Part shown: in pieces, positions 1,225 through 12,546 of the stretch
Numbering within the stretch: position 1 is the stretch's first letter
Layout: every line of letters starts with the position of its first letter
From: a virus
DNA length: 34,558 nt
Strand: one strand, 5' to 3'
IMG/VR virus record: IMGVR_UViG_3300022187_000107
Location: 1 to 34,558 of that record
Position numbers and translations under genes: made by a program
The notes under the pieces: generated by a model
The model's input: the letters and a program-made list of their open reading frames with translations, nothing else
What the model was told of the DNA's origin: nothing
Databases searched by the model: none

Positions 1225-1422
1225 GTGGCTCGGGAGTGGAATACCCCTGTGCGCGAACCGTGGAACGGGGTGATTAAAACAGCACTAGACGCTGTAGATC
1301 GACATAACGCCCACTACTTTCAATCAAAGGACGCAAGACACCTTATAGCCGCCGAGCTTTTGCGCACCTACGTCACGTATTTAAAAGATTTAGTACTGAG
1401 TATCGAAAAAACTTCTACCTGA
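1225..1422 (+). CDS. Small hypothetical protein
   Basis: A 65-aa protein started by GTG (no ATG in frame near the 5' end). It appears largely helical, with basic and acidic residues mixed and a central region AAELLRTYVTYLKDLV. No family recognised. It follows the preceding gene after 46 nt and its stop codon overlaps the first base of the stem of a strong intrinsic terminator, so it ends this short transcription unit. Confidence 0.6.
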   Translation: MAREWNTPVREPWNGVIKTALDAVDRHNAHYFQSKDARHLIAAELLRTYVTYLKDLVLSIEKTST

Positions 1423-1447
1423 TCGCCCACGCGGGCGATTTTTTTTT
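1422..1447 (+). terminator. Intrinsic terminator
   Basis: A perfect 7-bp stem ATCGCCC (1422-1428) / GGGCGAT (1433-1439) with loop ACGC, followed by nine T residues (1439-1447). It is a textbook rho-independent terminator closing the 834-1422 unit and insulating the promoter that follows. Confidence 0.92.
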
Positions 1448-1466
1448 GTGTACCCCTGCCTGTATG

Positions 1467-1495
1467 TTGACACTAAAACTTTTGCCCCCTATTTT
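1467..1495 (+). promoter_or_regulatory. Strong sigma70-type promoter
   Basis: TTGACA at 1467-1472, a 17-nt spacer, and TATTTT at 1490-1495. It lies just after the terminator at 1422-1447 and has no gene to drive for over 1.2 kb, so the transcript (start near 1502) would consist of the structured non-coding region and then the early small genes from 2728. Confidence 0.7.
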
Positions 1496-1499
1496 CCAG

Positions 1500-2640
1500 C
1501 AAGATTTATAAAGGGTTCTCGCCGGGGGCGACGTTATACGCGCATATTTAAAAAAAAGGGGCAGATTGCGTGCAGGTACGCGCGGGTACGGGGCAGGAGT
1601 TTGTATAAACAATCAATCAACGATCACTATGTATTACAAACTCCTACTCTTGTTCTATTCTTTTAGCTAAGCCAGGGGGGTACCCTCTTTAATTAAAGAG
1701 AATTCAAACCGTGAAGCCGCTTGACAGAAGGCGCAACGTGGTGCTAGCGCGTGCGCGTGTGTGCGTTTCAATTAACTAAGGGTCGGACCCTGGCATTGTG
1801 TGCCAATCCGTGAACCGGTCAGAAAGGGTTGACCTATCGCACCAATGCCGGATACCTTTAGGTCACTGGAGAACAGGCCACGGCCCGGACGCCAGAGCAC
1901 CTAGAAAACCGAATCGACTCTCGCGACGGCCGAACTGGCCCCGCGCGTCTGCCGCTGATGGTAGGGAGTACTTCCCCGAAGTGTAGGCAAGGGCAGGCAT
2001 GGTGTGCCGGAACGTGAGCGGCGAGAGTTGTAGTAGGTAACTAGGTGAAAGAACCTTGACAATCAAATAGTTAGCTAAGTCAGTGCGGGTTAGCACGGGT
2101 AGCCGATTGGCTTAGCTAACTGTTCAAATAGCAGGCATCGTCATAAGACGGAACTAAGGGCGCGAGCGATCCCCTGAGCACAATACGGTTGCAACTCAAC
2201 CGGTTAAGTGTGCACGATGCCGAACTTATCAGGCTGTACCTTGTCAGCTGGCACCTTTAACTAGGTGAACAGTTGGCTACTAGAACTGATCAGTAGGTTC
2301 GTTACCTACATCTAGCGACGCAAACGGTTTCGTCACCGTGGCACGCAGTTAGTTACAGCTTTGCACTTGTCACTTTGCAGGCTTGTCCAGAGTAACTGTC
2401 CTTAATGCAGGTACGCTGGACAAAGCCGGATGCAATTCCCACGCGGTCGATTAACCGCCGATGGCGAATTAAGTCCCGCAACTAGGTGAAATTGTGCAAA
2501 CTGTAGCTAACTTAGTGCGTACTTTTTAGTTTCGGGTAACAATCCCGAACTGTATTAGGGCGGAGCCAGTTAATCACTAGCCTTGTCCGGATGTAGTCCT
2601 AAGTTTGATCCGATAGGATCATTTAGGATCATTCTCTAAA
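1500..2640 (+). ncRNA. Candidate large structured non-coding RNA
   Basis: This stretch of about 1.1 kb has no convincing gene: the reading frames are short and unlike proteins. It is rich in stems: 1792-1798/1843-1849; 1915-1924/2021-2030 (10 bp) enclosing hairpins 1928-1940, 1970-1982 and 1996-2008; 2066-2079/2111-2124 (14 bp) enclosing 2083-2096 and 2101-2112; 2134-2141/2214-2221 with 2178-2182/2209-2213 and 2186-2191/2197-2202 nested inside; 2293-2309; 2381-2390/2416-2426; 2443-2458; 2531-2549; and 2597-2628. Such density and nesting suggest a giant ornate RNA of the GOLLD/ROOL kind (large phage- and mobile-element-associated RNAs), but I cannot match it to any consensus. Exact ends are uncertain. 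Alternatives are a replication origin or a long regulatory leader. Strand is assumed from the upstream promoter. Confidence 0.55.
2039..2490 (+). repeat. Three spaced copies of an 11-nt motif
   Basis: AACTAGGTGAA occurs at 2039-2049, 2259-2269 and 2480-2490, that is 220 and 221 nt apart. Copy 2 has its AGGTG in a hairpin (CACCT 2252-2256 / AGGTG 2263-2267) and copy 1 can form AGGT/ACCT with the following bases. The surrounding sequence is not otherwise an obvious tandem repeat, so the motif itself appears to be kept, probably as a recurring RNA module. Confidence 0.7.
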
Positions 2641-2644
2641 TTTC

Positions 2645-2727
2645 GATTCTCTCCTCAAGCCTTACGGTTTGATGAGGGATTCATCCCTCTTTGTTGTCAG
2701 CTGCCAGCTCTATTGCTGGTGAATGTT
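2645..2727 (+). promoter_or_regulatory. Three-hairpin leader element, copy 1
   Basis: It begins GATTCTCTCCT, then hairpin I TCAAGCC (2655-2661) / GGTTTGA (2666-2672), hairpin II GAGGGA (2674-2679) / TCCCTC (2684-2689), and hairpin III CCAGC (2704-2708) / GCTGG (2715-2719), followed by GTGAATGTT and ATG at 2728. The same order of elements recurs at 3841-3945. Hairpin III sits about 8 nt before the ATG, so it can affect ribosome access; hairpin II is followed by a T-rich stretch and may attenuate transcription. Confidence 0.7.
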
Positions 2728-3027
2728 ATGAACATTAAGACCAACAATCAACCACGCCGGCTGCTGTTTGCGTGTGAGTTTTCTGGCGCTGAGCGTGCCA
2801 AACTTCGCAAACAGTTTGATTGGATGAGTGATGAGGAGTTCGACTCCGATTGTTCTTTCTTTCGCTACAAAGGTTATTACTACAACCTCGCTGACTTTAT
2901 GCGGGTTGATTCTTGTCTGGAGTCAGCACTTAGCGGTTGGCATGGTTACAGCTCCGACTCTTATTTCAGCGGTGTGCTGATCAAACTGTGCGGCGAGGAT
3001 GTTATTGTCGGCCGTTACTATTCCTGA
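2728..3027 (+). CDS. Small conserved phage protein
   Basis: A 99-aa protein from ATG 2728 (a GTG at 2719 and a TTG at 2713 are in frame, but lie inside the leader hairpin). Features: RRLLFACEFSGAERAKL, then aromatic YKGYYYNLADFMRV, and a C-terminal WHGYSSDSYFSGVLIKL block ending GRYYS. I recall this pattern from small uncharacterised phage and plasmid proteins but have no function for it. No membrane segment and no catalytic motif. Expression is probably controlled by the three-hairpin leader that it shares with the gene at 3946. Confidence 0.8.
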   Translation: MNIKTNNQPRRLLFACEFSGAERAKLRKQFDWMSDEEFDSDCSFFRYKGYYYNLADFMRVDSCLESALSGWHGYSSDSYFSGVLIKLCGEDVIVGRYYS

Positions 3028-3602: not shown

Positions 3603-3842
3603 ATGTTCCCTTTCGAAGTAACTAAGCTCTGCAAACAGTTCACTGGCCGCGTGTACTTGCAGAAAGAGAGACTCAATCAAGGCGGTTATACCAGCGATGG
3701 TATCTACTTTGGTGTTGGTGATCCGCTCTACTTTGCCCAAGATGAAGAAGGTCTGTGGGCAGACTACTTCCGTGCTTCATGTAGAGATGAAGCTATAGAT
3801 ATCCTGCGTGATCGCTATCCGATTGCCAAGATCAAACGTTGA
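3603..3842 (+). CDS. Small hypothetical protein
   Basis: A 79-aa protein that starts 2 nt after the preceding stop, so it is likely co-translated. It contains VYLQKERLNQGGY, a Gly/Tyr-rich middle and a C-terminal helix SCRDEAIDILRDRYP ending in basic KIKR. No family recognised. Its stop codon overlaps the start of the second three-hairpin leader. Confidence 0.75.
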   Translation: MFPFEVTKLCKQFTGRVYLQKERLNQGGYTSDGIYFGVGDPLYFAQDEEGLWADYFRASCRDEAIDILRDRYPIAKIKR

Positions 3843-3945
3843 TTCTCTCCTGTAGCTATCCCCAGACTGCACTGCAGTTTGGGTTAGTTACATGAGGGAC
3901 TTACCCTCATTGTGTTAGCTGCCAGCCATGTAGCTGGTGAATGTT
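3841..3945 (+). promoter_or_regulatory. Three-hairpin leader element, copy 2
   Basis: Begins GATTCTCTCCT like copy 1 (2645). Hairpin I is CCCAGACTGC (3861-3870) / GCAGTTTGGG (3874-3883), 10 bp, unrelated in sequence to hairpin I of copy 1 but in the same place. Hairpin II is ATGAGGG (3892-3898) / CCCTCAT (3904-3910); hairpin III is CCAGC (3922-3926) / GCTGG (3933-3937) with a 6-nt loop as in copy 1; then GTGAATGTT and ATG at 3946. Keeping the stems while the sequence changes argues for function at the RNA level. Confidence 0.75.
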
Positions 3946-4299
3946 ATGACCCTGAGCCAATCCACGCAGCTCACTGCATCTCACGCAGTTGAGTATTTAA
4001 TCAACGAAGACAACGGACTTCTAACGTTCGAAGAACTGCAGGACATCGCCCGCAAAGGTTGTGCAGCTTGTGCACCTGACGGGCTCGCCTATTATCACGA
4101 GACTTGGGACTTCTTCATCACGTTTGAGGATGATGTAGAGGATTATTTCTACAACAAGTATGGTGATGCTTGGCTAGAACGATTCGCCAAGAACAGCACA
4201 AGCGTGCGCGGCATGGTTAATCATATGGTGTGGACGTTTGTTAATCAAGTTGCCCAGGAAGTAACTGGAATCCGCGAACCTTTGGGCCACTGGTCTTAA
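3946..4299 (+). CDS. Small hypothetical protein
   Basis: A 117-aa protein from ATG 3946 (a GTG at 3937, inside hairpin III, is the alternative). Features: SHAVEYLINEDNG, a Cys pair (GCAACAPDG), an acidic aromatic middle (FEDDVEDYFYNKYGDAW) and a hydrophobic C-terminal helix (MVNHMVWTFVNQVAQ). No recognised family. Preceded by the second copy of the three-hairpin leader, implying the same control as the gene at 2728. Confidence 0.78.
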   Translation: MTLSQSTQLTASHAVEYLINEDNGLLTFEELQDIARKGCAACAPDGLAYYHETWDFFITFEDDVEDYFYNKYGDAWLERFAKNSTSVRGMVNHMVWTFVNQVAQEVTGIREPLGHWS

Positions 4300-4343: not shown

Positions 4344-4616
4344 ATGGCAACCATTCAACATCACTGTGCACCTAACGATCGCAACGGTAACCCTCAGCGT
4401 TGTTACGTTCTACTTGATCTTGACGATGTAGCTGTAGCCGCATGGGATGAGGGCTACCTAGGTTCCCACGCTGTCCCCGGAATATGGCGTGAGGCCGCAT
4501 ACAATGCGCCGCGCATTGAGTGTACAGTTGCAGCTTATCGTCACCTATTGCGTACATTGCCTGGGCCGGACTATGCTTACCAAGTCCCTGGCTATTCTCA
4601 TCTCCGCAACCCTTAA
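4344..4616 (+). CDS. Small conserved phage protein
   Basis: A 90-aa protein with CYVLLDLDDVAVAAWDEGY, LGSHAVPGIW and AYNAPRIECTV, then a C-terminal helix AAYRHLLRTLPGP. I recall similar small phage proteins with an AWDEGYLG...VPG core but no function. Preceded by GC hairpin copy 1 and an A/C-rich leader without a Shine-Dalgarno sequence. Confidence 0.78.
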   Translation: MATIQHHCAPNDRNGNPQRCYVLLDLDDVAVAAWDEGYLGSHAVPGIWREAAYNAPRIECTVAAYRHLLRTLPGPDYAYQVPGYSHLRNP

Positions 4617-4624
4617 CTAAACCA

Positions 4625-4789
4625 ATGTCAGACCGTAAGTACATCGTGCACGTTGAGACTGCAGATCGTGGCGACTTTAAGATTCACACACTGGCATCTA
4701 GTTGTTTAGAAGCTGAATCAATCGCCCGCTATTGCGTACGCCAACAGTTCACCAACGACATCCTCAGTTCCCACGCTTGGCCTAAATAG
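4625..4789 (+). CDS. Small hypothetical protein
   Basis: A 54-aa protein from ATG 4625, 8 nt after the previous stop, following TTAACTAAACCA, a short form of the pre-start block. A longer in-frame extension upstream would run through the previous gene and is not credible. Sequence: YIVHVETADRGDFKIHTL, then ASSCLEAESIARYCVR, giving a beta-beta-alpha look. Function unknown. Confidence 0.6.
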   Translation: MSDRKYIVHVETADRGDFKIHTLASSCLEAESIARYCVRQQFTNDILSSHAWPK

Positions 4790-5031: not shown

Positions 5032-5250
5032 ATGGCAAACTTCGATCACATCAGCCACTTACACAAAGACCAACTACTACACGTAGTTAGCTACTACATG
5101 ACGTCAGAGATGCGCAACCATCTGATGCGCGAATGTCCGGCCGCATACAACTCACTGTGTGGCCGTGTGGTTATCACGTCGCAGGTACATGATACGGGCC
5201 GCAAGATCATCGAGCGCCCCACAGATGTAGACCTTAGAGACTTTGACTAA
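5032..5250 (+). CDS. Small hypothetical protein
   Basis: A 72-aa protein from ATG 5032, 2 nt after the previous stop; an upstream in-frame extension would overlap the previous gene and is rejected. Sequence features: HISHLHKDQLLHVVSYYM, then MRNHLMRECPAAYNSL and a C-terminal VVITSQVHDTG strand region. No known family. Followed at once by GC hairpin copy 2. Confidence 0.7.
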   Translation: MANFDHISHLHKDQLLHVVSYYMTSEMRNHLMRECPAAYNSLCGRVVITSQVHDTGRKIIERPTDVDLRDFD

Positions 5251-5270
5251 ACCCGCTAACGCGGGGCCAA
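5251..5270 (+). repeat. Intergenic GC hairpin, copy 2
   Basis: ACCCGCTAACGCGGGGCCAA, with stem CCCGC (5252-5256) / GCGGG (5261-5265) and loop TAAC, directly after the stop of the preceding gene. Identical to copy 3 (5466-5485) and one base longer in the loop than copy 1. Confidence 0.65.
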
Positions 5271-5301
5271 CTCACTGAACACTCACACTAATCTAATCAT
5301 C

Positions 5302-5460
5302 ATGAACAAACCCGTTTGCTCAATTTGCGGGCTCGCTTCTTTACCTGGTTTGAAACCAGGTTCGGGCAAGTGTCAATGGCATTGGACCGCCGGTAATTGG
5401 GGCCGCGCTTGGGCCCTGCAAACAATCGGACCCGAACCTAAGCGAGGGCTAAGTATGTAA
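5302..5460 (+). CDS. Tiny zinc-finger-like protein
   Basis: A 52-aa protein: MNKPVCSICG, a Gly/Lys turn, then KCQWHWTAGNWGRAW and a basic tail. C6, C9 and C24 with H27 could bind one zinc ion. It is placed like the other early genes, between GC hairpin copies 2 and 3, with an A/C-rich leader. Function unknown; the compact Cys/His arrangement suggests a nucleic-acid or protein-binding knuckle. Confidence 0.6.
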   Translation: MNKPVCSICGLASLPGLKPGSGKCQWHWTAGNWGRAWALQTIGPEPKRGLSM

Positions 5461-5465
5461 CGACT

Positions 5466-5485
5466 ACCCGCTAACGCGGGGCCAA
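5466..5485 (+). repeat. Intergenic GC hairpin, copy 3
   Basis: Same 20-nt sequence as copy 2: CCCGC (5467-5471), loop TAAC, GCGGG (5476-5480), then GCCAA and a leader (ATCACACAAT) similar to the one after copy 1. It lies 5 nt after a stop codon. Confidence 0.65.
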
Positions 5486-5507
5486 ATCACACAATTATCC
5501 CATCATC

Positions 5508-5816
5508 ATGACAACACGTTTCGAGCCTAACCTCGTCTTACTTGATTCCCACGGTGTCTACATTCCCCAGCTTTATTGCAGTGATGCTGACGAACACTGG
5601 GCTAAGTGTGTAGGTGTTGATTACGAAGACGTTCAAATATGTCAGGCTGGCCCAGATCACGAATGGTATTGGGAAGCATGGGACAACATCCTAAACAATG
5701 CCAGCATGGTTAGTGACGGTGTTACTTGGCGATTGCACCAGGATGGTGACCTTTGGGAGATTCCTGATGGTTACACATTCGATGACGATTGTGGCATCCC
5801 GATCACTCCTGTTTAA
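5508..5816 (+). CDS. Small acidic conserved phage protein
   Basis: A 102-aa acidic protein. Blocks: LLDSHGVYIPQLYC, ICQAGPDHEWYWEAWDNIL, and LHQDGDLWEIPDGYTFDD. The GPD.E.YW.AWD..L and QDGDLW segments recall a small conserved phage protein without known function. No membrane segment. Preceded by GC hairpin copy 3. Confidence 0.8.
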   Translation: MTTRFEPNLVLLDSHGVYIPQLYCSDADEHWAKCVGVDYEDVQICQAGPDHEWYWEAWDNILNNASMVSDGVTWRLHQDGDLWEIPDGYTFDDDCGIPITPV

Positions 5817-5855
5817 CCCTGTGGTTGTCCACGCCGCCTACACAAACCAACTCCA

Positions 5856-6029
5856 ATGAATCACTTCCCTTACGACATTTACCAGTTGGATTCACACAGC
5901 CTGGCCTACCATTCCCTCGCACAATTCAAACAGATTCTCCTTAAAGAGGAGATGCCAAATGACATCGTTTACTTAATTGAAGACAAGATCATCCCCGCCC
6001 TTGAAGGTATTGTCTCTCAAAATTACTGA
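5856..6029 (+). CDS. Small hypothetical protein
   Basis: A 57-aa protein, MNHFPYDIYQ..., mostly helical with an amphipathic segment (LAQFKQILLKEE) and an acidic middle. ATG 5856 follows an A/C-rich leader like its neighbours. Too short to assign to a family; accepted because of its position in the gene series and a complete reading frame without overlap. Confidence 0.55.
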   Translation: MNHFPYDIYQLDSHSLAYHSLAQFKQILLKEEMPNDIVYLIEDKIIPALEGIVSQNY

Positions 6030-6059
6030 CTCTTAACTAACCCAACTCGCACACACATC

Positions 6060-6407
6060 ATGCGTAAAATTGAATCACAAATGCTGCTCGCAATCCACTC
6101 CAAGAAAGATTGGAAGTGCGCCAATACACAAGTCTCTGTAGACTATTTCGCCCACGCTGATCGACTCATTGATCGCACAACTGTATATCTGCACGGTAGC
6201 CCAATCGCTCAGATCAGCCCCGATACAGTTACGATCTGCGACTATGGTTACCAAACACCTACAACTAAGTCAAGACTAAATGCTATTCTGCGTGAGCTGT
6301 GCGGCGCTGGTATCTACCAGAAGAATCACAAGTGGTTTGGCACAGCAATCGAAGAAGCGGATTGGGAGATCGAAAAGAACTCCCGTCACTGTTTTGTGCG
6401 AGGTTGA
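6060..6407 (+). CDS. Small conserved phage protein
   Basis: A 115-aa protein: IESQMLLAIHSKKDWKCANT, VYLHGSPIAQI, then YGYQTPTTKSRLNAIL and a C-terminal GAGIYQKNHKWF. The order (I..QM..AI......NT.V, VYLHG..IA, T.TTKSRLNA.L, Q....WF) is one I recall from many small phage proteins of unknown function. Preceded by a short form of the pre-start block (TAACTAACCCAA). Confidence 0.8.
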   Translation: MRKIESQMLLAIHSKKDWKCANTQVSVDYFAHADRLIDRTTVYLHGSPIAQISPDTVTICDYGYQTPTTKSRLNAILRELCGAGIYQKNHKWFGTAIEEADWEIEKNSRHCFVRG

Positions 6408-9618: not shown

Positions 9619-9818
9619 TGACGCGCACAATTTACGTAATCAAAACAGAAGAGGGTTATCTTACCGCCGATGGATCTGCTACAGCGGATCCCTTCGAAGC
9701 TATCTCATTTGTAGATCCAGAGGTTGCAGGTAAAAAAGTTCGCCAAGCGGCCCTTCAATCAACTAAGGGCTTAACTATTTGTCCTGTTGAAGTTCAATTC
9801 CCCAAACCAATCAAATGA
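9618..9818 (+). CDS. Small hypothetical protein in MoxR-vWA operon
   Basis: A 66-aa protein whose ATG shares one base with the previous stop (TAATG) and whose stop overlaps the next ATG (9815). Beta-rich: TIYVIKTEEGYLTAD, then FVDPEVAGKKVRQAA and ICPVEVQFPK. No family recognised. The overlap with both neighbours ties its expression to the ATPase. Confidence 0.7.
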   Translation: MTRTIYVIKTEEGYLTADGSATADPFEAISFVDPEVAGKKVRQAALQSTKGLTICPVEVQFPKPIK

Positions 9819-11002
9819 ACAACAAACTGTTTGCCAAGCTTCAAAACTTCCGAGGTGCTCTTAACGCCGCCACGCTGGAAAGAACTGATGTAATTGACGG
9901 TTTGCTTAGTTGTCTGTTGTCTAAGCAGAACGCCTTTCTTCTCGGCGCACCTGGCACAGGTAAATCCGATTTGGTTAGAAACATCTGCAAAGGAGTCAAG
10001 GGAGTAAATTACTTCGGCTACTTGCTGACACCTACTACAGACCCTTCAGAAGTTTTTGGCCCAGTGGCTGTAACTAAACTGCTGAAAGATGAGTATCAAC
10101 GAGACGTCAACGGTTATTTACCTTCGGCGCACGTTGGTTTCCTGGATGAACTTTTTCGGGGTTCCTCCGCAATCTTGAATTCTTTACTTACTTTGCTCAA
10201 CGAAAGGACTTTCAATAACGGCAAAGAGACTATCATCACTCCTCTACAAAGCATCGTCGCCGCGACAAACAGCTGGCCCGAGGAAGAATCACTTCAAGCG
10301 TTCAGTGATCGATTTCTTTTCCGCCCCACGGTGCATACGCTCAAGAAACCGGCCTCGAAGCGAATTCTTGACCAATGGGCGCTCGGCATCGAACAACGTC
10401 CGGAAGTCGGTGAACACATTTCGCTTGAAGAGCTCAGCATTCTTCAAGACGAAGCAGAAAAAGTAAAGATATCTATTGAGTTTTTGGATAAATTTAACAG
10501 CATCTGGGAACTCTTGTCGCAACGAGGTATTGCGATTAGCGATCGTCGCCGCGTTCAGATTCTTAAGTTTCTTAGGGCTTGGGCAGTTGTTCAAGGCGAC
10601 GATACACTTCACCCTGAGCATATGCACAACAGCATTGTGCACATCGTGTATACAAGCTCTGATGATCAGCAAGTTATATGCGAAGTGTTAGAGCAGGAGA
10701 TTCCCACAGCGGCAAAACTTTTTGCCGATGCTAAACGGGCTACTTCCGGTGTTATGGCTGAGTTTCAGGCCACCGTGCACCGCAGCCGTGCAAATAATTT
10801 GGAAGGTTTAAACGAATATGTGACGATGCTGCGCAAGTATCACAAAGACGTCAATACAGTTAAAGGTAAGGTAGATGAGCTCCTAATAAGTGATCGCATT
10901 AAAATGTCCGCGTCTGAGCGTATGAACGGAGTAAAACTCACACAACAGCTCCAGAACAACTTGGATTCCATCGCCCGCGAAATCTCGGAGATCGCACAAT
11001 GA
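9815..11002 (+). CDS. RavA/MoxR-type AAA+ ATPase
   Basis: A 395-aa ATPase of the MoxR branch of AAA+ proteins. Seen: Walker A GAPGTGKS (44-51), Walker B GFLDE (108-112) followed by the MoxR/RavA-like AILNSLLTLLNERTF, sensor 1 AATN (149-152), arginine finger in FSDRF (163-167), and SDRRR (242-246) at the sensor 2 lid, as in RavA. The C-terminal 100 residues form a helical extension. MoxR proteins act with vWA partners as chaperones that remodel or activate target complexes; relatives in cyanophages are often annotated cobS. The vWA partner is the next gene (4-nt overlap). Target unknown. Confidence 0.88.
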   Translation: MNNKLFAKLQNFRGALNAATLERTDVIDGLLSCLLSKQNAFLLGAPGTGKSDLVRNICKGVKGVNYFGYLLTPTTDPSEVFGPVAVTKLLKDEYQRDVNGYLPSAHVGFLDELFRGSSAILNSLLTLLNERTFNNGKETIITPLQSIVAATNSWPEEESLQAFSDRFLFRPTVHTLKKPASKRILDQWALGIEQRPEVGEHISLEELSILQDEAEKVKISIEFLDKFNSIWELLSQRGIAISDRRRVQILKFLRAWAVVQGDDTLHPEHMHNSIVHIVYTSSDDQQVICEVLEQEIPTAAKLFADAKRATSGVMAEFQATVHRSRANNLEGLNEYVTMLRKYHKDVNTVKGKVDELLISDRIKMSASERMNGVKLTQQLQNNLDSIAREISEIAQ

Positions 11003-12546
11003 CACAAACTCGCCGTGAATTTTTACGCATTGTTGAAAATCAGCCGCTGACTCTTTATTGCGGCGCACTGGCTGATTTTCTTTGGGATGATTTTGTGCGA
11101 GATCAACGCCCCAGTGTCAATTTTTTGATCAACAACTATGAAATTACGCAACTAAGTCGATTTGGTAAAGAAATTTTTCAACGTCTTTATGACGAGGATC
11201 AAGTCAAGTGGCTTGTGAGCGAGCAAGACGTTGAAGATTATTTTCGTGCCGTGTGCGACGGGATGCCTACAAAGCTTCCTGAGAACTACCGACCGGAAAA
11301 CGGTGTGTGGTTCGCGATTATGGACGAACTGACTAACGCTGCAGGTTGGCCTTTGCTGCTGCACCGCTGCGTGGGCGATCAGTTTGCTTCGGGAAACAAC
11401 GCAGTGATGCTGCTTAATGAACTTGCGGAAGCCATCGAGCAGGCGATAGCCGAGCAAGCTTTCGATGTGGAACTACTAACCAAAAGCGGACAACAATTGC
11501 AGGAACTACGGGAGAAGTTCCAAAGAGAAACAGCTAAAGGCAACACCAGCAAGGCTACCGAAATCAGACAGCAAGCAAAGGATTTGATCAACAAGATCAA
11601 TGATGCAATTCAGGAGGCTAGAGAACAGGTCGGTGCTGAAGCGAGCAAAATGGTTGACAGCGTCAACAAAGCTAACGACGAGCTACAGGAACAGATGGGA
11701 AATCTGTTCGGAGATACTGCAGGTCAGGGCGCCTCGTCCGGCACTCTGGCAGAAAAGAAAGCTCTGGCGAAACGGCTGAACCGCAACCAAACATTGCGTA
11801 AAATAGCCACGCGGCTCGGAACGCTGAGGCGTATATGGGGCGAGCGGAAGCGTGCTCGTAAGGCGAAAAGCAATTACGAGAACATCACCGGTGCCAAGTT
11901 CGACAACAACGTAACGCAGGCGTTCCCCAGCGAAATTGCTTTAGCGGCCACGCCGCAAGGGCGGGCGTTGTTCGCTTTAAAATATTCTGAACGCACTTTA
12001 CTCACCAAAGATTACACAGCTAGCCGTAAGGATCTGGGAAAGGGTCCGATCGTTATGTACATCGACGTTTCCGGATCAATGACAGGAGCCAGCGAAATCT
12101 GGTCCAAAGCCATTGCATTTGTTATTGCCGAAGAAGCTCTCAAACAACGTCGAAAGGTACAAATCAACCTGTTCGACACATTCATTCAAAACAGTGTGAC
12201 AATCGAACCAGACAAAGCTAGCACTTCGAAGTTGTTGGACTTTGTCGGCGACTGGTTTCTGAAGGGCGGCACAAGCTTCAACAGCGTCATTGACCACGCC
12301 CTAAAAAATACAGAGCTGACAAAGAACAGTGATGTCTTGATGATTACCGACGGGGAGTCGGCAGTTAACGATGCCTTTGTTAAGCGCCTTAACGCATTTA
12401 AAGAATCTACTGGTACTCAATGGACGACGTTCTGCATCGCTAAACATCTTCCCCCTGTAGTCGCAACATTTAGTGACGAGAGCTACACCGTAGACACCTC
12501 TGATGACAATAATGTTGTAGACGCTATTCAAAAAGCAATCCGATGA
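10999..12546 (+). CDS. vWA-domain protein, ViaA/CobT-like
   Basis: A 515-aa protein. Residues 1-150 are helical, 150-290 are charged and coiled-coil-like (EQAIAEQAFDVELLTKSG; ANDELQEQMGNLFG), and 350-515 are a von Willebrand A domain with a complete metal site: DVSGS (356-360), T425 in KGGTSF, and D451 in TDGES. The block YSERTLLTKDY before the vWA domain resembles ViaA. Such proteins pair with MoxR ATPases, carrying substrate through the metal site. The start overlaps the ATPase stop by 4 nt, so equal production is likely. Confidence 0.87.
   Translation: MTQTRREFLRIVENQPLTLYCGALADFLWDDFVRDQRPSVNFLINNYEITQLSRFGKEIFQRLYDEDQVKWLVSEQDVEDYFRAVCDGMPTKLPENYRPENGVWFAIMDELTNAAGWPLLLHRCVGDQFASGNNAVMLLNELAEAIEQAIAEQAFDVELLTKSGQQLQELREKFQRETAKGNTSKATEIRQQAKDLINKINDAIQEAREQVGAEASKMVDSVNKANDELQEQMGNLFGDTAGQGASSGTLAEKKALAKRLNRNQTLRKIATRLGTLRRIWGERKRARKAKSNYENITGAKFDNNVTQAFPSEIALAATPQGRALFALKYSERTLLTKDYTASRKDLGKGPIVMYIDVSGSMTGASEIWSKAIAFVIAEEALKQRRKVQINLFDTFIQNSVTIEPDKASTSKLLDFVGDWFLKGGTSFNSVIDHALKNTELTKNSDVLMITDGESAVNDAFVKRLNAFKESTGTQWTTFCIAKHLPPVVATFSDESYTVDTSDDNNVVDAIQKAIR

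Follow-up and report, generated by a model that had tools for sequence, protein, structure and literature searches.

A large structured RNA with an exchangeable cassette in relatives of cyanophage S-EIV1

A gene-free region in a virus record related to Synechococcus phage S-EIV1 holds a non-coding RNA structure, encoded by the + strand, that is conserved and covaries, and we are nearly certain that it is a real structured RNA. An earlier note had read about 1.1 kb of this DNA as a candidate giant structured phage RNA; that reading is supported, since homologues covary in the stems it listed and contain no conserved reading frame. Going beyond it, we find that the RNA is modular, that its cassette is swapped among relatives and that some of its modules are common to unrelated T7-like cyanophages.

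The window, that is, the whole stretch of DNA analysed, comprises 34,558 bases and is a linear virus record from IMG/VR. Its proteins resemble those of S-EIV1-type cyanophages, and the primase is nearest to that of S-EIV1. It also encodes a family A DNA polymerase and a MoxR/VWA pair (9815-12546), in which a MoxR-type AAA protein (PF20030) is followed by a VWA/CoxE-like protein, here in a phage genome. When 25 kb of it were compared with phage records by megablast, there were zero matches. The described lack of genes over ~1.1 kb was confirmed: only short ORFs (62-77 aa) occur in 1448-2096, and no ORF of at least 60 aa occurs in 2097-2712. The remark that genes otherwise touch or overlap was somewhat overstated, as gaps of ~250 bases lie at 5250-5508 and 5816-6060. 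The parts of the presumed RNA and its surroundings are as follows (window coordinates):

1421..1446, + strand: intrinsic terminator of the upstream transcription unit, an 8-bp stem (1421-1440), then a T-run; adjoins the RNA
1457..1525, + strand: block with promoter-like sequences and the presumed 5' end; conserved in homologues
1526..1764, + strand: 5' variable part of the presumed RNA, with an 11-bp hairpin (1595-1605/1635-1645), read from the sequence
1791..1903, + strand: 5' hairpins, a GGCATTG/CAATGCC stem, then TAGGT (1859-1863)-hairpin-ACCTA (1899-1903)
1899..2059, + strand: domain X, multi-helix, with a near-invariant core GATGGTAGGGAGNACNTCCCCGAA and including helix 1915-1924/2021-2030 (alignments A3 and A6, covariation)
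Between domain X and the cassette: connector GAACCTTGACAATCAAATA
2066..2124, + strand: first half of the exchangeable cassette, a 14-bp helix (2066-2079/2111-2124) that encloses hairpins (compensatory changes in relatives)
2132..2222, + strand: core module, with closing helix P1, P2, and P3/P4 with a GCAACYC loop (31 sequences; 42 contigs)
2235..2335, + strand: peripheral arm
2322..2640, + strand: 3' domain (alignment A2, covariation; model R2), with outer helix 2350-2358/2501-2509, hairpin 2383-2390/2416-2423, helix 2436-2446/2454-2468 and GATC hairpin 2607-2611/2616-2620
2674..2697, + strand: terminator-like hairpin (2674-2689) GAGGGATTCATCCCTC-TTTGTTG, possible 3' end
2728..3027, + strand: first downstream gene, 99 aa

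The terminator noted just upstream of the region is there (1421-1440 plus T-run), and the 1421-1446 hairpin with T8 is also found in the relatives L049, L051, L052, L055, L056 and L065. What had been called a strong promoter is better termed promoter-like: TTGACA-17-TATTTT at 1467-1495 and TATNNT at 1462-1467 lie in a block of conserved sequence, but there is one match vs 1.6 expected by chance. At the other end, the terminator-like hairpin at 2674 is weak; it is present in most close relatives and absent from L081, L084, L087, L095 and L096. A leader block (GATTCTCTCC, a GAGGGA-type hairpin and a TGCCAGC hairpin) is repeated at 2644-2733 and 3841-3950. The copies are ~83% identical over their 3' part and precede two cluster genes, one of them at 3937; the block may be a terminator, an attenuator or a processing signal.

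A conserved, covarying, non-coding RNA on the + strand

Homologues came from several searches whose contig sets overlap one another. Blastn (word 11) against phage records gave two short matches, one between 2138-2201 and an unannotated gap in S-CBP1 and DSL-LC07 (Synechococcus phages, T7-like podoviruses), the other between 1814-1863 and an intergenic piece of Syn5. A core pattern built from the S-CBP1/DSL-LC07 match returned 42 viral contigs, and a relaxed version returned the identical 42. The 3' hairpin pattern returned 21 contigs, the domain X pattern 21 viral contigs, and a pattern from the Syn5-like 5' hairpin matched Syn5 alone. The protein of the first downstream gene led to 17 relatives' loci; in blastn, the majority matched the RNA region with ~60-96% identity. 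Overall, homologues of the RNA occur in ~20 other uncultured phages related to S-EIV1. S-EIV1 itself lacks the core and the 3' domain and has just ~0.5 kb of gene-free DNA between divergent operons. On its - strand (L085 43440-43800), a repeated element, TGATCCGTCAAAGCGGGT, stands in the early intergenic gaps and is followed by a hairpin whose loop around TGCAAAC recalls the core's hairpin with the GCAACYC loop. Exact core and domain X patterns gave zero matches in 84,980 bacterial and archaeal genomes, so that at such sensitivity there is no sign of host origin.

No reading frame is conserved across the region, as all three + frames of 13/13 homologous regions contain 10-47 stops each. The heavy structure described earlier was borne out by folding: 1765-2640 folds at -344.9 vs -283.1 (sd 7.0) kcal/mol for 20 shuffles (z -8.85), and 1502-2460 gives z -4.56. 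Of the proposed extent, 1500-2640, the part from ~1765 to 2640 is well supported, and 1500-1764 is looser and less conserved; in distant homologues 1526-1764 is recast or missing. At helix positions, G-U accounts for 111 cells vs 14 for A-C, and this large excess shows that the RNA is the + strand.

All three blocks common to the homologues covary, namely domain X (1899-2059), the core (2132-2222) and the 3' domain (2322-2640). For the core, in 31 sequences from two unrelated phage groups, 99.3% of the cells at 24 pairs were paired and both sides changed at 16/24 pairs; the covariation score was 0.531 vs a shuffled mean of 0.120 (0/500 reached the observed value), and slid partners gave no more than 0.073, on an alignment fitted to its own model and with shuffles that ignore phylogeny. 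The 3' domain (14 sequences) was 94.9% paired with both-side changes at 16/45 pairs (0.285 vs 0.134 shuffled, 0/500), the 5' domain (12 distinct sequences) was 94.4% paired with both-side changes at 9/39 pairs (0.171 vs 0.102 shuffled, 0/500), and domain X (16 sequences) showed both-side changes in 9 of its 43 pairs; these structures, like that of the core, were derived by RNAalifold on the very alignments used for the pair counts, and their shuffles ignore phylogeny too. P1 of the core varies freely yet stays paired, including UA to CG at two near-invariant positions. A CGTC/GACG hairpin inside the core was rejected, being broken in L054 and L073; P1 uses the same CGT, and compensating changes preserve it (UA to CG in L067 and L054). 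RNAalifold on the gapped T7-like leaders upstream of the core found no structure.

The two long helices that had been singled out earlier also covary, in a comparison in which the L073 row is out of register. In ten sequences, 9-10 of the 10 pairs of helix 1915-1924/2021-2030 persist although the helix is rewritten (as CGACTCTCGC/GCGAGAGTTG, CGATTCCCGC/GCGGGAGTTG and ACAGATCCGC/GCGGATCTGT). Helix 2066-2079/2111-2124 keeps 8-14 pairs, with both sides changed in L049, L067, L070, L062 and L061. In 7 records, the window among them, model R2 found a single full 3' domain apiece, always on the RNA strand; its other matches were weak antisense ones of the same helices and an extra hairpin copy in G012.

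Exchange and sharing of modules

The scaffold of 5' hairpins, domain X and 3' domain is constant across relatives. In the interval from the connector to the 3' arm, other sequence replaces the core in L051/L052/L059, L055/L063, L056, L065 and L070; the core was looked for in L051, L055, L056, L063, L065 and L070 and not found, with different sequence at its site. The cassette site carries structured modules that differ between relatives. Where present, the core is single-copy (9/9 records carrying it). The peripheral arm of L009/L016 has an insertion of ~190 nt near 2275 with long complementary arms.

Modules also occur outside this group. The core is found in the leaders of unrelated T7-like cyanopodoviruses (S-CBP1, DSL-LC07 and many metagenomic contigs); it is the final large element of that leader, which has a TAGGT-...-ACCTnGACAA element as well. 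The 5' hairpins at 1791-1903 have a counterpart at Syn5 1534-1590 and in T7-like leaders. In some T7-like phages the 3' hairpin stands upstream of the core, the opposite of the window order (L020 3486-3516, L024 5590-5628, L037 843-881, L041 3345-3383), and in four contigs (L068, L076, L077, L080) it occurs without the remaining RNA. The shared core, the reversed order and the solitary 3' hairpins together make the RNA appear to be assembled from modules moving between phages.

Some loci are of interest on their own. In L055, an HNH endonuclease gene (4358-4723, - strand; PF01844, E 1.2e-6) replaces the 3' hairpin within the 3' domain, and the outer helix GTTAGTTACAG/CTGTAGCTAAC is kept around it; this is possibly a homing gene inside a non-coding RNA gene. 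In Syn5 (L003), a 345-bp gap between gp4 and gp5 (1400-1745) opens with a terminator-like hairpin and has the 5' hairpin module of the window RNA, then unlike sequence; the element is probably a smaller relative of the window RNA. At hairpin 1803-1850, the window is closer to Syn5 than to the relative L009, which elsewhere is 90% identical; this likeness suggests that recombination may have acted at the level of modules.

Genomic position and proposed role

In the S-EIV1-like loci (the window and 15 others), the RNA heads a small-gene cluster at a constant position, ending 64-102 nt before the first gene. The first gene itself belongs, by sequence, to at least four different families across these loci. 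A first gene that changes family at constant spacing speaks against the RNA being the regulator of a single gene. The first predicted ORF of T7-like phages begins 73 to ~600 nt after the core, and a conserved TTTGACA.AAATTT block, where found, lies 464-847 nt upstream of that ORF. In both phage groups the RNA or its core stands upstream of small early-type genes, with early transcription and the start sites putative.

On balance, we lean towards a modular large + strand non-coding RNA of ~0.9-1.2 kb that is the first transcript of the early cluster and acts mostly in trans as an RNA or RNP. Host RNA polymerase would transcribe it early, at the onset of infection. The constant scaffold (5' hairpins, domain X and 3' domain) would present an exchangeable cassette, here the core module, and the folded RNA, or an RNP formed with it, would work mostly in trans. 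Each cassette may serve to bind some component of the host, such as the ribosome, RNA polymerase, or the RNA-decay or defence machinery. Turnover of the cassette in a conserved scaffold would be expected if its partner is host-specific or evolving. The change of first gene, the size of the RNA and the cassette turnover make such a trans-acting RNA more likely than a single-gene regulator.

The main rival, possible though distinctly doubtful in our judgement, is a structured leader that acts in cis on the early operon, in which the nascent RNA would modify host RNA polymerase (as HK022 put does), control processing or stability, or gate translation of the early genes. In the T7-like phages the core does lie between the promoter-like TTTGACA.AAATTT block and the first early ORF, and sequence inspection revealed no obvious terminator between the core and that gene, so that the core there resembles an mRNA leader. 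Together with a precedent, HK022 putRNA, which as RNA alone brings about antitermination where an early operon begins (PMC9378689), this keeps a cis leader alive. The constant spacing of the S-EIV1-like RNA ahead of its gene cluster fits such a leader too. The weakness of the 2674 hairpin, its absence from five relatives and the related block before the gene at 3937 count against the trans reading. However, an RNA of ~0.9-1.2 kb made up of several independent domains greatly exceeds the known need of such elements, most close relatives have a terminator-like hairpin after the RNA, and the first genes vary between phages. Moreover, cassette exchange would be unexplained if the target were the well-conserved RNA polymerase.

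Known RNA classes and meaning

Rfam at gathering cut-offs gave no match in the region and only tRNAs in the relatives' loci; with E up to 10, 1400-2760 gave only chance-level miRNA and viral motifs. The GOLLD model (RF02032) had no match with E up to 10 in the window and six records, where no control genome passed the cut-off either. The ROOL model (RF03087) had no match in the same number of records, seven, and as control genomes were silent, the E<=10 Rfam scan, which matched neither GOLLD nor ROOL, is the better test for ROOL. The earlier note had allowed for a new class or a divergent member of these two; without a match to either model, a new class suits better and the divergent member does not fit.

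A divergent GOLLD, ROOL or other known large ornate RNA is accordingly very improbable, even though length, phage origin, multi-branch architecture and a less conserved 5' part would all suit it. Like GOLLD (RF02032), the window RNA is phage-borne, matches the >800 nt of many members, has an ornate multi-branch fold and is conserved in its 3' part and less so in its 5' part (PMC12286853); GOLLD forms a 14-mer RNA nanocage, and GOLLD and ROOL often lie near tRNA islands (PMC12286853). By contrast, the window RNA heads a small early-type gene cluster, swaps a modular cassette and shares modules with T7-like cyanophages. No tRNA gene was found in the window, and tRNAs near the RNA were seen in 2/8 relatives' loci scanned (L095, L067), kilobases away, a point in favour of a known class. 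Like the window RNA, ROOL (RF03087) is a large phage/prophage RNA of complex fold whose function is not known (PMC12286853); the window RNA has so far been seen only in cyanophages and at a different locus.

The put RNA of HK022 is a small cis element. It acts as RNA alone where an early phage operon begins (PMC9378689), a place that the window RNA may share; the window RNA differs in being many times larger and in belonging to phages of another host group. The manA, wcaG and PhotoRC-II motifs are also structured RNAs of cyanophages (PMC2864571); they are mostly marine and may be leaders that regulate genes of metabolism, polysaccharides or photosynthesis, and their Rfam models had no match in the window. 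No description of this RNA was found in the searched literature. The RNA is non-coding, longer than ~500 nt, multi-branched and covarying, as large ornate phage RNAs are; this kind is known. Judged by Rfam 15 and the literature searched, the family and its modular build across phages are new.

Two further readings fare no better than a known class. A DNA-level element with palindromes, such as a genome end, packaging or origin region, would suit the position of the T7-like core between late and early genes, where by gene order such genomes end, but we consider it scarcely credible: palindromic DNA would not show frequent G-U and rare A-C at helix positions, the helices are long-range and multi-branched, unlike simple palindromes, and the S-EIV1-like locus is not a known genome end. 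Decayed or undetected coding sequence, suggested by the few 62-77 aa ORFs that overlap the region, is practically negligible given the stops in all + frames of all homologues and the compensatory base changes.

The known RNA classes above 500 nt are few in phages and bacteria; among them, GOLLD, ROOL and OLE form RNA-only assemblies whose roles are poorly understood (PMC12286853). The modular RNA described here adds a new, well-covarying family from phages of cyanobacteria. It also comes with a built-in experiment, a constant scaffold with a swappable cassette and the same cassette in the cultured phages S-CBP1 (host Synechococcus CB0101) and DSL-LC07, and this design opens its function to laboratory test. 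More speculatively, and with the odds in our view against it, the family might be a new class of giant phage RNAs in which a scaffold bears interchangeable effector domains. Unrelated cyanophage families would trade these domains, which would be rewritten as hosts change, and the RNAs would serve to take over or disarm the cyanobacterial cell early on. If true, this would be an RNA counterpart of modular protein effectors.
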